The notes beneath the pieces are model-generated. The model was not told where the DNA came from. It worked only from the letters and a program-made list of their open reading frames with translations, and ran no database searches. Shown in pieces: positions 4,850 through 11,349 of a stretch of DNA of 40,439 nucleotides. The number at the start of each line of letters is the position of its first letter. Position 1 is the stretch's first letter. The stretch covers positions 1-40,439 of the forward strand of contig JANQHD010000026.1 of the NCBI GenBank assembly GCA_028282805.1, read 5' to 3'. Source of the stretch: Phycisphaeraceae bacterium (lineage in GTDB: Bacteria; Planctomycetota; Phycisphaerae; Phycisphaerales; Zrk34). Both the position numbers and the translations under genes were made by a program.

Positions 4850-6757
4850 TTACCAGAAGACCACGTAGAGGGCCACGGTCGCGATGCAGACGATCACGCC
4901 CACAACCAGCGCGCCCTTGGACGAGTGCATGGGGATCTTGGTCTGCTCGGGCAGCTTGATCGGCTCCTTGAGCGGCTTGATCAGGGTCACGATCAGCAGG
5001 ATCGCCGCGATCGCACCGACGGTGATCGCCATGCGGTTGAGGAACGCGATGTCGGGCGCGCCGAAGAACAGGGCGCCGTAGATGATCGGGCTGAGGATCA
5101 GGCCCAGCACACCACAGATGCGCGGCGCCCAGGGCACGAACAGGCCGAACAGGAAGATCGTGAGGATGCCCGGGGAGACGAAGCCCTGGAACTCCTGGAT
5201 GTAGGCGAACGCGCCGGCGAACTTCGGATCGGCCAGCTTCGGTGCGATCACACACCCGATGACCACACAGATCGGCACGCAGATCCGCCCCACCCAGATC
5301 AGCCGCTTCTGGCTGGCGTTCTTGTGGAACCACTCGCGGTAGATATCCATGGTGAAGATGGTCGAGGCGGCGTTGAGCATGGAGGCCAGCGAGCTGATGA
5401 CCGCGCCCATGAGCGCGGCGACGACGAAGCCCCGCAGGCCCTGCGGGGTCAGGTATCGGATCAGCAGCGGGAAGGCGTTGTCGTAGTCATAGCCGATGAG
5501 GGTCTGGGTCTTGACCTTGCCCAGCTCCTTGTTCTCATCGACCGCGGCCTTGATCACCGCGTCGTTGACGTCCACGACGGTCTGGCCTTCCTCGGCGGCG
5601 GGCACGGCCACGTCGCCGACCGCGGCGTTGAACTTCGTGATGTCCAGCGCGAGCTGCGGGTGCAGCTCGACGAAGTCGGCGTCGTAGGGGATGAGCATCG
5701 GGTCGGACGCGGGGTTGGCCTTGGTCGCCTCGAAGCGCTCCATGACCGGGCCGTTGAGCTGCGGCGAGTCCATCGCGCTCTCGGCCATTTTGTCGCTGTA
5801 GAGCGTGAACGCGATGATGCCCGGCACACACACGATGAACGGGATGATCAGCTTCATGCCCGCGGCGAACACGACGCCCTTCTGCCCGTCGGCCAGGCCC
5901 TTGGCGCCCAGCGTACGCTGCATGATGTACTGGTTGAGGCCCCAGTAGTAGAAGTTGGGGATCCAGATGCCCAGCAGCAGCGCCGTCCAGGGCAGGAACG
6001 TGCTGGTCCGCGGCAGGGCCATGTGCATCTTCTGCTCTTTGAGGCTGGCGAACTTCTCGCCTACCGTCGCGGTTTCCGAAACGTCCAGCGAGGTGTTGAT
6101 CGTCGCCACGGCGTTGGTGCCCTCGAAGTCGGCGGGCTTGTCGAGGGCCATGAACGACAGCACCATGATCACGGCGCCACCGGCGATCAGGGCCGTGCCC
6201 TGGATGAGGTCGGCCCAGGCGCAAGCCTTCAGGCCGCCGGCCGCAACGTAGACCGCGGCCGCGATGCCCACGATCCAGGACAGCTCCATGATGCCCAGGT
6301 CTTCGAACAGCGGGTTGAGCGCCTTGGCGCCCATGTAGATCACAGCCGTGATCGTCACGCCGGCGAGGATGATCACCATCAGCAGCGACATGACCGTGCG
6401 CGAGGCGTGGTCGAAGCGGTGTTCGAGGAACTGGGGGATGGTGAAGATGCCGCTGCGCAGGAACGTCGGCAGGAAGCAGAACGCGACCACCACCAACGTG
6501 ATCGCGGCACACCATTCGTAACTCGCCACCGCCAGGCCGATCGAGTCCTTGGCCGCCGCGCCGCTCATGCCCACGAACTGTTCGGCGGAGATGTTGGCGG
6601 CGATCAGCGAGAAACCGATCAGCCACCAGTTCAGGCCGCGGCCGGCGAGGAAGTAATCTTCACTGTCCGTCTCTCCGCGGCTCTTCCACAGGCCGATCGC
6701 GATGACCGCGACCAAGAAAACAACGAAGATTACAATGTCAATCGTAGCTAGTTCCAT
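4850..6757 (-). CDS. Sodium:solute symporter family protein (SSS, SGLT-like)
   Basis: A 635-aa polytopic inner-membrane transporter of the SSS family, which couples sodium entry to uptake of sugars or related solutes. The N-terminus (VIFVVFLVAVIAIGLW, then EDYFLAGRGLNWWLIG) and the ISAEQFVGMSGAA and AGGLKACAWADLIQG motifs are typical of vSGLT-like members. About 13-14 hydrophobic segments are visible. A non-membrane stretch around residues 310-420 is long for the family and probably forms an extracytoplasmic loop. The start is supported by AAGGAG six bases upstream on the minus strand. The gene is alone, divergent from the sulfotransferase-like gene, with its own terminator. A sugar is the likely substrate but this is inferred. 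Confidence 0.9.
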   Translation of the reverse strand: MELATIDIVIFVVFLVAVIAIGLWKSRGETDSEDYFLAGRGLNWWLIGFSLIAANISAEQFVGMSGAAAKDSIGLAVASYEWCAAITLVVVAFCFLPTFLRSGIFTIPQFLEHRFDHASRTVMSLLMVIILAGVTITAVIYMGAKALNPLFEDLGIMELSWIVGIAAAVYVAAGGLKACAWADLIQGTALIAGGAVIMVLSFMALDKPADFEGTNAVATINTSLDVSETATVGEKFASLKEQKMHMALPRTSTFLPWTALLLGIWIPNFYYWGLNQYIMQRTLGAKGLADGQKGVVFAAGMKLIIPFIVCVPGIIAFTLYSDKMAESAMDSPQLNGPVMERFEATKANPASDPMLIPYDADFVELHPQLALDITKFNAAVGDVAVPAAEEGQTVVDVNDAVIKAAVDENKELGKVKTQTLIGYDYDNAFPLLIRYLTPQGLRGFVVAALMGAVISSLASMLNAASTIFTMDIYREWFHKNASQKRLIWVGRICVPICVVIGCVIAPKLADPKFAGAFAYIQEFQGFVSPGILTIFLFGLFVPWAPRICGVLGLILSPIIYGALFFGAPDIAFLNRMAITVGAIAAILLIVTLIKPLKEPIKLPEQTKIPMHSSKGALVVGVIVCIATVALYVVFW

Positions 6758-6906
6758 AGGTGCTCCTTCCCTTGATCGCCCGGGCCGTGCGGTGTGGGAT
6801 GTGCGCCTCCGATGTCCCCTGTCGAGCCCGAACTCAAGAGTTCTACATGATTTGGCCCGAAAGCATAACCGATTCGTCCGGCTCTCGCATGCCCGCCCAC
6901 GGCTGA

Positions 6907-6979: not shown

Positions 6980-7723
6980 ATGCCCCCTACCCGGATCGCC
7001 ATGTGGTCGGGCCCGCGGAACATCTCCTCGGCCCTGATGCGCTCTTTCGACAGCAGGAACGACACCTACGTCTCTGACGAGCCGTTATACGCGTTTTACC
7101 TCGACCAGACCGGCCTCGACCACCCCGGGCGCGACGAGGTCATCGCCCACCACGAAGCCGACTGGCGCAAGGTCGTCGACTGGCTGACCGGCCCCGTGCC
7201 CGGGGATAAACCCATCTGGTACCAGAAGATGATGTCGCACCACATCCTCATGGACATCGACACCAGCTGGTTCAAGCAGTTGAAGCACGCGTTCCTCATC
7301 CGCGACCCGCAGGACATGCTCACCAGCCTCACCAAGGTGCTGCCCGAGGTCGACGTGGAGCAGACCGGCCTGCCCAGCCAAGTCGAGATCTTCGACCTGA
7401 TCACCGAACAGACCGGCCAGGAGCCGCCGGTGCTCGACGCCCGCGACGTCCGCCTCGACCCCGAGGGCGTGCTTAAGCAACTCTGCGAAGTCATGGACAT
7501 CCCTTGGGACCCGGCCATGCTGTCGTGGGAGCCGGGCGCCCGCCCCACCGACGGCATCTGGGCCAAGCACTGGTACGCCAACGTCGAGAAGTCGACCGCG
7601 TTTGCCCCGTGGGTGGAGAAGGGCGAGGCCGTGCCCGACGAGCTGCGGGGCGTGCTCGACGAGTGCCAGAAGCTGTACGACCACATGTCCGCCAAGCGCC
7701 TCACCACCCCCGCCTGTTTGTGA
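6980..7723 (+). CDS. Sulfotransferase-like P-loop protein
   Basis: A 247-aa protein. ATG at 6980 is fixed by GGAGG at 6967-6971 with an 8-base spacer. The N-terminus (RIAMWSGPRNISSALMRSF) matches the 5'-phosphosulfate loop of PAPS-dependent sulfotransferases, and FLIRDPQDMLTSL resembles their 3'-phosphate-binding segment. DARDVRLDPEGVLKQLCE is also typical of the fold. The usual reaction would be sulfate transfer from PAPS, but the acceptor is unknown and nucleotide binding may have another use. It lies 7 bases before, and is surely cotranslated with, an aminotransferase-like gene. From memory, plants encode this same domain order as one fused protein, the branched-chain-aminotransferase-like proteins. 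Confidence 0.75.
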   Translation: MPPTRIAMWSGPRNISSALMRSFDSRNDTYVSDEPLYAFYLDQTGLDHPGRDEVIAHHEADWRKVVDWLTGPVPGDKPIWYQKMMSHHILMDIDTSWFKQLKHAFLIRDPQDMLTSLTKVLPEVDVEQTGLPSQVEIFDLITEQTGQEPPVLDARDVRLDPEGVLKQLCEVMDIPWDPAMLSWEPGARPTDGIWAKHWYANVEKSTAFAPWVEKGEAVPDELRGVLDECQKLYDHMSAKRLTTPACL

Positions 7724-7730
7724 GCCCGCC

Positions 7731-8636
7731 ATGCGCCAGAAGTACAACGAGCTAAACCGTGACCTGATCGTCAACATCAACGGCGAGCTGGCCCACCGCG
7801 ACAAAGCGGGCGTCAGCCCGTTCGACTCGGCCGTGCAGAACGGCGACGCGGTGTGGGAGGGGTTGCGGCTGTATGAGGGCCGTGTTTTCAAGCTGCGCGA
7901 ACACCTCGACCGGCTGCGCAAGTCGGCCGAGCTGTTGCAGTACGAGGGCCTGCCCGACGACGACTACATCGTCGAGCAGCTGACGCGCACGCTCGAAGCC
8001 AACGGCATGTACGACGGGGTGCACGTGCGGCTGACGGTGTCGCGCGGGCTTAAATATACCTCGGGGCTCGACCCGCGCGTGAACCTGGGGCGGTGTTCGC
8101 TGTTCGTGTTAGCCGAGCACAAGCCACCGGTTTATGACAAGACCGGCATCACGCTGATCACCGCCCAGCACCGCCGGCCCCCGGCCAACGTGCTCAACCA
8201 GGTGATCCACTCGTGCAACCAGTTGACGAGCATACTGGCCAAGCTCGAGGCGAACGCCGCGGGCGCCGACGATGCGCTGTTGTTGGATTTGAACGGCAAC
8301 CTCGCCGAGACGAACGCGACGCACGTGTTCATCGCCAAGGCGGGCAAGCTGCTGACGTCGACGACCGACGCGTGCCCCACGGGCATCACGCGGGCGACGC
8401 TGCTGGGCTTGTGCCAACAACACGGCATCGACCACGCGGTGCGCGACATCCCTCACGCGGAGCTTTTCGAGGCCGAGGAGATGTTCGTCACCGGCACGAT
8501 GGGCGAGCTGGTGCCGGTGGTGGAGTTGGATGGGCACGCGTACGCCATCGGGCCGATGTACGAACGGCTGAGCGAGCTGTTCGCGGCAGAAGTCGCCCGG
8601 TGCGACGACCCGCCGTTGGTTAGCCAACCGCGGTGA
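7731..8636 (+). CDS. Class IV aminotransferase-like protein lacking the PLP lysine
   Basis: A 301-aa protein with the full fold of class IV PLP enzymes (branched-chain and D-amino-acid aminotransferases): VWEGLRLYEGRVFKLREHLD near the N-terminus, VSRGLKYTSG, NLAETNATHVFIAK, PTGITRATLLGL and VTGTMGELVPV. The position of the Schiff-base lysine, normally I-K-S-x-N, reads IHSCNQL with His160. No lysine lies next to it, so ordinary transamination is doubtful. ATG at 7731 is 7 bases after the stop of the sulfotransferase-like gene, so the two are translationally coupled and probably work together. An automatic label of branched-chain aminotransferase would be misleading here. Confidence 0.8.
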   Translation: MRQKYNELNRDLIVNINGELAHRDKAGVSPFDSAVQNGDAVWEGLRLYEGRVFKLREHLDRLRKSAELLQYEGLPDDDYIVEQLTRTLEANGMYDGVHVRLTVSRGLKYTSGLDPRVNLGRCSLFVLAEHKPPVYDKTGITLITAQHRRPPANVLNQVIHSCNQLTSILAKLEANAAGADDALLLDLNGNLAETNATHVFIAKAGKLLTSTTDACPTGITRATLLGLCQQHGIDHAVRDIPHAELFEAEEMFVTGTMGELVPVVELDGHAYAIGPMYERLSELFAAEVARCDDPPLVSQPR

Positions 8637-8695: not shown

Positions 8696-8769
8696 GCCGA
8701 TCTGAAGCGGTAGCTCTCAGGGGGATGTCGCGGTCAGCTTACTCAAAATCCGAGGGTAGGAATCGAAAC

Positions 8770-11349
8770 ATGATGGACACGGCAACGCAGCGTAGGACCA
8801 CGGTCGCCGGCGGCGTTATCGCGGCGCTGTGGGTCGCACTCACCAGCTCGAACGCCTATGGGCAGTCCGTCGGCTGGGACGGTGAAGGCGCAGACAACAA
8901 CTGGAGCACCGCGGCCAACTGGGTCTTTGACACGCCCCCCGGCAACCCGGCCACGCCCGGCGCGGACTCGATCATCGGGTTTCTCGGCTCGGCCCGCTTG
9001 ACCCCCAACGTCGACCAGGCGTGGTCGGGCATCACCGAGGTCCGCTTCGACAGCAGCGCCGACCCCTTCGTGCTCGGGGGGATGTCGATCAGCTTTCTCA
9101 ACAACGCCTCGATCGTCAACAACAGCACGAACCTGCAGACCTTCGACAACGACCTGATCGCCAACGGCACGACGCTCTTCCTCACCGCCACGGCCGGCGA
9201 CCTGCTGTTCAACGGCGGGTTCGACCTCAGCGACGCGGCGGGCTCGGCCGACGGCGTGGACCTGGTGGTCAACGCCAGCAACGACACCGACATCGCCGGG
9301 GTGATCAGCGGCGCCGACGGGCGGGTGTTCAACACCGGCAACGGCACCCTCACGCTCGGTGGCGCCAACACCTACACCGGCGCCACGATCGCCAGCAACG
9401 GCACCATCATCATCAACGGCGGGGTCGCGGGGGACGTGCAGAGCCTCAACTCGGCCACGGTGGAGATCAACGCCGGCGTCGGCGGCGACCTGAGCGTGGA
9501 CGGGGCGAGCAACACGGTGATCAAGAACGGCGGCACCGTCGTCTCCGACGTGAGCGTCAACCGCGGCACGCTCACGGTGGAAGTCGGCGGCAGCATCAAC
9601 GGCACCACCGGCGTCAACGGCACCATGGTGCTGGACGGCGACACCCTGGGCGACGTCAACGTGCAGGCGACCACGGTGTTCACGCGCCTGTCCGGCACCG
9701 GCACCGTGGGCGGCAACCTGACCGTCACCAACTTCGGCAGCACGGTCGCGCCCGGCAACGGCATCGGGACGATGGACGTCGGCGGGGACTACACGCAGAA
9801 CGTGAACGCGGAACTCGAGATCGAGATCAACCAAAACACGAACAGCGCCGACCTGCTGAACGTGACGGGCAGCGCCACGCTCGCCGCGAACAGCCGGGTC
9901 ACGATCATCCAGGACGACTCGGACACCATCGCGGATGGCAAACAGTTCACCATCGTCCAGACGGGCTCGGGCGTCATCGACGAGGGCGCGACGACCTTTT
10001 TCAGTTCGGCCTCCAACCCCTTGATCGGCTTCGCGCTGCAGGTCGTGGGCAACAACCTGCTCATCACGGCCGAGCGGGGCGGCAACTTCTTCGAGGGCAA
10101 CGCGGGCGGCGCGAACAACCTCGCGATCGGCAAGGGCCTCGACACGCTCAACGCGACCAACCCCACGGGCGACCCGGACACGCTGCTCAACACGCTCGCG
10201 GGGCTGATCGACCCGATGGACCCGACCGACACCGCGGCGCTGAACTCGGCCATCAGCCAGCTGAGCCCGCAGACCTACAACGTGCCGGCGGAGACGAACA
10301 TCGAGATCGCGCGGTCGAGCAACCAGCGGACGGGCGACTACCTGGCGGCGCGGCGGCGCGGCATCCCCACGCGCCACACGCTGACCCGATCCGGGCCGAT
10401 GGGGCCCATGCTCGCCAGCGCCGCGCCCGACCCGCAGCTGCTGGCCTACGCGATGAACGCCCCGGCGCGACCGCCCTACCAGGGCTACCGCTCGCTCGAA
10501 GACGGGCCCGGCGCCCCCGGCCGCTGGGGCGGCTTCGCCCAGGGCTTCGGCCTGTTCGAGGAAAAAGACACGCAGTCCGGCCTGACCGGCTTCGACGCCG
10601 ACGCCTACGGCGTGCAGGTCGGGTTGGATTACGCGCCGTTCCGCAACGTGATCGTCGGCCTGAGCTTCTCGTACATCAACACCGACGTGGACCTCAACGA
10701 CGGGCGGGGCGACAGCGACATCGACACCTACCGCGTGGGCCCGTACCTGTCGTACGAAGCGCACCCCTGGCACTTCGCCTACGCGCTGACGTTCGGCGTG
10801 CACGAGGCGGACAACACCCGCGTCATGCCCGCGATCCCGGCCACCGCGACCAGCGACACCGACTCGTGGGACGTGGCGTTCTACGCCGAGGGCGGCGTCG
10901 ACTTCCAGGTCGGCGAACACACCTACGTGACGCCGATGGGCTCGCTCCAGTTCCTGCACTTCGAGCAGGACGACTTCGTCGAGTCCGGCGGCGGCGGCGC
11001 GGCGCTGTCGGTCGACTCGCGCGACACCAACTCGCTGCGCACCCGGCTGGGCGCCGGCGTCACCCACACGATCAAGAACGCCAGGTCCGACGTGGTGCTC
11101 GAGGGGTACTTCGGGTGGGAGCACGAGTACATGGCCGACGACGGCGACGAGATGGTCGCGCGCTTCACCGCGGGCGGCAGCCCGTTCGCGATCAACGTCG
11201 GCAGCGCCAACGAGGACTCGCTGTTCATCGGCGGCGGCGTCAGCGTGCTGATGGACGAGAACGTCTCGCTGTACATGCTCTACGACGGCAACTTCTTTTC
11301 CGACGGCGAGACGCACGCGATCGGCGGCGGCGTGACGCTGCGGTTCTGA
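8770..11349 (+). CDS. Autotransporter with outer-membrane beta-barrel domain
   Basis: An 859-aa type V secretion protein. ATG at 8770 is preferred; the upstream in-frame ATG at 8725 has its purine run directly against it. A signal peptide (GGVIAALWVALTSSNAYG) leads into a passenger rich in Gly, Asn and Thr with beta-helix character. This includes the autotransporter-associated strand repeat GTLTLGGANTYTGAT near residue 190 and repeated GGDVQ/GGDLS/GTVGGNLTV turns. From about residue 587 the chain changes to a 270-aa barrel of alternating strands (GFAQGFGLFEEKD onward) ending HAIGGGVTLRF, with the terminal Phe used for barrel assembly. It is therefore an outer-membrane surface protein. No protease or lipase motif is seen in the passenger, so adhesion is a guess. 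Confidence 0.88.
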   Translation: MMDTATQRRTTVAGGVIAALWVALTSSNAYGQSVGWDGEGADNNWSTAANWVFDTPPGNPATPGADSIIGFLGSARLTPNVDQAWSGITEVRFDSSADPFVLGGMSISFLNNASIVNNSTNLQTFDNDLIANGTTLFLTATAGDLLFNGGFDLSDAAGSADGVDLVVNASNDTDIAGVISGADGRVFNTGNGTLTLGGANTYTGATIASNGTIIINGGVAGDVQSLNSATVEINAGVGGDLSVDGASNTVIKNGGTVVSDVSVNRGTLTVEVGGSINGTTGVNGTMVLDGDTLGDVNVQATTVFTRLSGTGTVGGNLTVTNFGSTVAPGNGIGTMDVGGDYTQNVNAELEIEINQNTNSADLLNVTGSATLAANSRVTIIQDDSDTIADGKQFTIVQTGSGVIDEGATTFFSSASNPLIGFALQVVGNNLLITAERGGNFFEGNAGGANNLAIGKGLDTLNATNPTGDPDTLLNTLAGLIDPMDPTDTAALNSAISQLSPQTYNVPAETNIEIARSSNQRTGDYLAARRRGIPTRHTLTRSGPMGPMLASAAPDPQLLAYAMNAPARPPYQGYRSLEDGPGAPGRWGGFAQGFGLFEEKDTQSGLTGFDADAYGVQVGLDYAPFRNVIVGLSFSYINTDVDLNDGRGDSDIDTYRVGPYLSYEAHPWHFAYALTFGVHEADNTRVMPAIPATATSDTDSWDVAFYAEGGVDFQVGEHTYVTPMGSLQFLHFEQDDFVESGGGGAALSVDSRDTNSLRTRLGAGVTHTIKNARSDVVLEGYFGWEHEYMADDGDEMVARFTAGGSPFAINVGSANEDSLFIGGGVSVLMDENVSLYMLYDGNFFSDGETHAIGGGVTLRF

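Follow-up and report, generated by a model that had tools for sequence, protein, structure and literature searches.

The gene at positions 7731–8636 on the forward strand of the window, by which we mean the whole 40,439-nucleotide stretch of DNA analysed here, encodes a 301-residue protein of the class IV aminotransferase fold in which the Schiff-base lysine is replaced by a histidine, His160. The absence of the catalytic lysine extends over an entire clade, whose members keep the phosphate cup of the pocket, have a remodelled aldehyde side and share an evolutionary bond to one family of PAPS-type sulfotransferases. A lysine-less class IV protein is already known as a deposited structure. The main result is how far this clade reaches and how nearly exclusively it is tied to a single family of sulfotransferases.

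The class IV fold of the window protein is indicated both by its profile match and by its predicted structure. The Aminotran_4 profile (PF01063) scores 150.5 bits against a cut-off of 28.5, and the AlphaFold2 (AF2) model, which was built from 48 sequences, has a pLDDT of 91.7 and a pTM of 0.88. The top fold matches of this model are PDB entries 9j32 and 7z79 (Foldseek E 4e-33, TM 0.91), for which a VIA fold comparison gives a Z of 36.7 and an rmsd of 1.9 over 297 aligned residues. Archaeal BCATs score below them in the same comparison (Z 34–35). Class IV enzymes account for 50 of the 50 matches listed, in agreement with fold type IV.

The translation of 7731–8636 contains NQVIHSCNQLTSILAK, and residue 160 is His (codon CAC, positions 8208–8210, forward strand). 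In the PDB alignments, His160 stands opposite Asn174 of 7z79, the depositors' N174K mutant of which is entry 9j32, and opposite the lysine that 5mqz, 5cm0 and 5e25 carry in their IKSLN motif. The paralogs and relatives that carry an IKSxNYL motif, canonically IKSLNYL, place their Lys in this column too. The initial annotation had proposed that His160 replaces the Schiff-base lysine and had suggested an alignment with characterised class IV enzymes as a check. The translation, the PDB alignments and the paralog alignments all agree with that proposal, and the absence of the lysine stands. The lysine that class IV PLP transaminases require for the Schiff base is lacking from the window protein and from the whole of its group, which has His in 136 of 136 members. 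A shifted or misaligned lysine was rejected at the level of sequence: His160, Asn and Lys share a single column in all the alignments, and the conserved lysine of the His group nearest to position 160 is K171. Decay of the gene, against which the annotation had also argued, is ruled out by the invariance of His160 across phyla.

A scan of a genome collection produced at least 580 confirmed relatives, so that the protein is carried by at least hundreds of genomes, and residue 160 was read in the best 80 of them. It is His in all 80, which come from six phyla or groups (Planctomycetota, Verrucomicrobiota, Chloroflexota, Gemmatimonadota, Acidobacteriota and Gammaproteobacteria), and chance or a sequencing error can hence be rejected. 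Within the same order as the window, His occupies this position in 21 of 21 aligned relatives. In a set of 220 different proteins (245 sequences minus duplicates and three short fragments, L025, L032 and L033), 136 have His at residue 160, 40 have Asn and 43 have Lys, and one protein (L004) is misaligned. The Asn proteins constitute a second lysine-less group, uniform at this position (40 of 40) and sister to the His group. A maximum-likelihood tree of 68 proteins, from which the motif columns had been removed and which omits L003, L004 and L027 because of their long branches as well as one duplicate, joins the two groups at 100/100 and recovers each of them at 100/99; a quick earlier tree of 72 rows showed the same union. 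In these trees 7z79 is placed inside the Asn group, so the window protein shares the lysine-less clade of 7z79, but not its group. The initial annotation did not mention that a whole clade, including a solved Asn-type member, shows this trait. The simplest reading of the trees is that the lysine was lost once and then replaced by His or Asn, a direction that depends on the Lys-type outgroup. Both types coexist within one group, since Asn-type proteins were assigned at L181 and L183 in the sampled Chloroflexota class (L183 ends at a contig edge and its residue is not readable). A diverged His-type homolog of 36–38 percent identity is found at L027 (1255–2121) in genome G003, from which PF19798, the sulfotransferase family described below, is absent. 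It has Gln for K108, Lys for R61 and Ser for E43, and it looks relaxed or repurposed.

The pocket around the lost lysine has been altered unevenly. R61, T220 and T256, which we take to form the phosphate cup by carrying over the roles known for E. coli BCAT, are retained in both lysine-less groups (in 135, 136 and 136 of the 136 His proteins, respectively). Glu193 (positions 8307–8309, forward strand), presumably the contact of the pyridine N1 of PLP by the same transfer, is invariant in the His group (136 of 136) and in the Lys type (43 of 43), whereas all 40 proteins of the Asn type have Thr or Ser instead. Position 164 is Tyr in the Lys type, where we assume that it contacts O3'. In the His group it is Leu, Gln, Met or Ile (mostly Leu or Gln) and never Lys; in the Asn group it is Lys in 37 of 40 proteins and Arg in 3 of 40, and it is Arg in 7z79 too. 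Along with the lysine, the tyrosine located four residues beyond it, a usual cofactor contact, has thus been lost, a point that the initial annotation did not contain. Residue 98 (codon CAC, positions 8022–8024, forward strand) is a signature of the lysine-less proteins, being His in 176 of 176 of them and Tyr in 34 of 43 of the Lys type. The alignment further shows a sole conserved lysine common to the His and Asn groups, Lys108 (codon AAA, positions 8052–8054, forward strand), which is present in 135 of 136 and 39 of 40 proteins, or 174 of 176 altogether; 31 of the 43 proteins of the Lys type have Gly there. The His group also conserves K131 (135 of 136) and K171 (134 of 136), and position 131 is Ser in 24 of the 40 Asn proteins. 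In all, eleven residues (N9, S33, W42, M93, H98, K108, E129, L142, D186, N195 and C215) are common to both lysine-less groups, each occurring in less than 15 percent of the Lys-type proteins. As R61, T220 and T256 are retained and the residues on the aldehyde side are changed, the phosphate end of the pocket has been kept and its aldehyde end rebuilt.

The gene upstream (positions 6980–7723, forward strand), which ends 7 bp before the aminotransferase-fold gene, encodes a Sulfotransfer_5 sulfotransferase of 247 residues counted from its ATG. The PF19798 profile of this family scores 164.7 bits against a cut-off of 23.2, and the AF2 model of the protein has a pLDDT of 94.6. The protein carries a conserved SGPRNxS loop and an R108...S116 spacing, which we take as the arrangement typical of PAPS enzymes. 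In a profile search of the PDB, clear sequence relatives were limited to two domains, that of CurM (E 5e-9) and that of an olefin synthase (E 5e-8); by fold, tyrosylprotein sulfotransferases are level with CurM/OLS (Z 14.9 versus 15.1). All 30 His-type genomes tested contain APS kinase, but so do 18 of 20 genomes without the module (48 of 50 overall), and the enzyme is not discriminating.

The coupling of the two genes is far stronger than a single window could reveal. A survey by phylum covered 392 genomes, of which 67 gave a match at the His level (at least 408 bits, the next matches being at most 274 bits, with the residue read directly only in the fetched loci), and PF19798 was present in all 67. 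Two Asn-type genomes of this survey have PF19798 as well, and G003 is without it. The family occurs in 0 of 80 chosen genomes that contain no lysine-less protein, that is, only a Lys-type or no close relative. Among the best 80 of the at least 580 relatives mentioned above, 64 have a sulfotransferase gene within their locus. Fourteen genomes from the other 16 loci were searched whole, and the sulfotransferase was located elsewhere in 11 and was absent from 3. These exceptions (L035, L037 and L043) are three Verrucomicrobiia genomes in which the His protein occurs and PF19798 is wholly absent. In its place, an M24 peptidase gene of the Xaa-Pro dipeptidase/creatinase-like kind immediately precedes the gene of the lysine-less protein (L043, 4855–5988; L037, 4877–5989; L035, 4843–5994), and at L265 an M24 peptidase gene (5705–6883) stands upstream of an Asn-type pair.

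Sampling from the sulfotransferase side gave the same picture, with no lysine in 38 of 38 readable aminotransferase-fold neighbours (28 Asn and 10 His). A sulfotransferase match was found in 13 of 274 genomes of Gammaproteobacteria, where 9 of 10 strong loci adjoin an aminotransferase-fold gene (6 Asn and 3 His). In the Chloroflexota class, 10 of 150 genomes matched, and the neighbour was His in 7, Asn in 1, cut at the contig end in 1 and missing in 1, the last of these genomes having its His protein elsewhere. Among Pseudomonadota, 37 of 398 genomes matched; 30 loci were fetched and the neighbour, present in 21, was Asn in all. The 9 neighbour-less loci of Pseudomonadota and the tenth gammaproteobacterial genome have an Asn protein elsewhere in the genome. 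Four weak sulfotransferase matches (52–76 bits, in three genomes) had no adjoining aminotransferase-fold gene, and the aminotransferase-fold proteins fetched from those three genomes are of the Lys type.

The arrangement of the pair differs between the two groups. The sulfotransferase gene comes first in 107 of the 108 adjacent His pairs, and the aminotransferase fold comes first in 29 of the 30 adjacent Asn pairs, so the pair must have been assembled or rearranged more than once. In a tree of sulfotransferases sampled at random from the 138 pairs (35 His and 25 Asn), the His-linked and Asn-linked partners do not fall into two clean clades, and 3 changes are counted. At L145 and L146 a fused single ORF encodes both proteins. 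Furthermore, the divergence of the partners is correlated in a mirror analysis (r 0.74 and 0.65, with 0 of 500 permutations as high), a correlation to which shared ancestry contributes. The link to a sulfotransferase-like protein that the initial annotation had suggested is thus seen in the operon, in the gene fusion, in the genome-wide co-occurrence and in the correlated divergence. An all-against-all clustering of ORFs from 80 His loci and 31 loci of Asn genomes found no third gene shared across phyla, and the other recurrent neighbours look as if they stem mostly from close relatives. In the window, a gene for a sodium:solute symporter (SSF; positions 4850–6757, reverse strand) diverges from the sulfotransferase gene and matches PRK10484.1 with 390.6 bits, just below the cut-off of 401. 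Directly downstream of the aminotransferase-fold gene lies that of an 874-residue autotransporter (positions 8725–11349, forward strand) with a PF03797 beta-domain (186 bits).

The initial annotation had offered three readings of the missing lysine (PLP bound with no Schiff base, a changed catalysis, or a role as binding or structural partner), and its interpretation is supported in part. Our preferred explanation, which we advance tentatively, is that the two genes form a two-enzyme module. The window protein would bind its cofactor, PMP or PLP, with no Schiff-base link to itself, and His160 would act as an acid-base on C4', by parallel with the His of E1, ColD and SpnQ, which belong to fold type I. 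The sulfotransferase may sulfate a hydroxyl of the same substrate. The sulfate might then, rather speculatively, depart as a leaving group when the aminotransferase fold carries out an elimination, or else a sulfated product might be formed after preparation of the substrate by that fold. A coupling of sulfation to elimination is suggested by the partner's PDB sequence relatives, which include a hydroxyl-activating olefin-synthase sulfotransferase, but the hint is weak because tyrosylprotein sulfotransferases tie with CurM/OLS by fold. In favour of the module and its mechanism speak the invariance of His160, the precedent of E1, ColD and SpnQ and the tight coupling to the sulfotransferase. The retention of R61, T220 and T256 in both groups, together with that of Glu193 throughout the His group, would be awkward without a bound pyridine cofactor and seems hard to explain otherwise. 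The loss of Tyr164 in both groups and the three Verrucomicrobiia His proteins without PF19798 count against this mechanism. As the Asn group keeps the same partner with no base at 160 and with Thr or Ser for Glu193, the PMP chemistry cannot simply be identical in both groups. An even more specific version is that the pair is the first example within fold type IV of what the PMP dehydratases with His for Lys represent elsewhere, in which the partner sulfates a common bacterial metabolite and the PMP-His enzyme expels the sulfate or rearranges the product. We regard this version as unlikely.

The same features of the Asn group bring a non-catalytic or other-ligand role close in probability to the PMP-His mechanism. 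The protein would then possess no B6 cofactor, its phosphate cup would bind another phosphate-bearing or anionic ligand, and it would serve the sulfotransferase as a subunit that holds the substrate, acts allosterically or has a structural role. This is a serious possibility, as the lysine, Tyr164 and (in the Asn group) Glu193 have been lost while the partner stayed constant, other residues (N9, W42, H98, K108, E129, D186, N195 and C215) are shared by both groups instead, and the gene fusion and near-perfect co-occurrence point to the sulfotransferase. However, Glu193 is invariant in the His group, residue 160 looks catalytic in being strictly His or strictly Asn, and three Verrucomicrobiia genomes retain the His protein without the sulfotransferase. 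It is quite unlikely, on the conservation pattern, that another lysine makes the Schiff base and the enzyme is still of the covalent PLP type. Lys108 would be the best candidate, being nearly invariant in the lysine-less proteins and mostly Gly in the Lys type, and most Asn proteins have a Lys at 164, four residues past the lost one; but the remaining Asn proteins and 7z79 have Arg at 164, no protein of the His group has Lys there, and K131 is often replaced by Ser in the Asn group. An ordinary branched-chain or D-amino-acid transaminase, as a database-style label would have it, is hardly credible. The leading NCBIfam matches are indeed branched-chain aminotransferase models, and by profile the protein would receive that name. 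However, all of them are under their cut-offs (205.9 versus 363 bits for PRK08320.1 and 155.9 versus 245.55 bits for TIGR01122), the lysine is missing throughout, and the protein's own genome has a separate Lys-type relative (L002, IKSMNYL). The real activity very likely differs from the name.

With the lysine lost and a sulfotransferase as a near-constant companion, the reaction of the pair probably lies outside the label "branched-chain aminotransferase". The strict tie to the sulfotransferase provides a testable handle on the chemistry of the module and raises the question whether lysine-free B6 catalysis arose in fold type IV as it did in fold type I. If the more specific version given above, which we regard as unlikely, is true, a sulfation-driven B6 elimination module is present in many phyla under the branched-chain aminotransferase label.

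Several known systems resemble one or the other half of this pair. The plant branched-chain-aminotransferase-like proteins 1 and 2 are long and may fuse sulfotransferase-like and aminotransferase-like halves; we found nothing relevant on them in the open-access literature. The class IV BCATs such as 5mqz are like the window protein in fold, phosphate cup, Glu193 and Arg100, and unlike it in that they retain the lysine and have a Tyr at both 98 and 164. The closest counterpart by fold is the Variovorax paradoxus "aminotransferase-like protein" 7z79 with its N174K mutant 9j32, which we know by their entry titles. It is 36 percent identical to the window protein and likewise without a Schiff-base lysine, but it has Asn for His, its group has Thr or Ser at Glu193, and the gene order of that group is mostly the reverse. 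No paper on 7z79, on N174K or on a lysine-less class IV protein was found in the open-access literature, and one may exist elsewhere. As to the partner, the CurM/olefin-synthase domains (4gbm and 4gox) differ from it in being polyketide synthase domains and in sharing merely 15–18 percent identity with it. In the olefin-synthase sulfotransferase domain, according to the published account, a beta-hydroxyl is activated by sulfation and the group is then lost (PMC4090904). For the PMP-dependent sugar 3-dehydratases E1, ColD and SpnQ, another account describes a replacement of the lysine by His, the use of PMP with this His as both base and acid, and a non-catalytic transamination by E1 H220K (PMC8987622). 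Like the window protein, these enzymes are aminotransferase relatives with His for lysine. They are relatives of sugar aminotransferases, whereas the window protein is of fold type IV and has a sulfotransferase partner, and the His group looks like a fold-type-IV parallel of E1, ColD and SpnQ.
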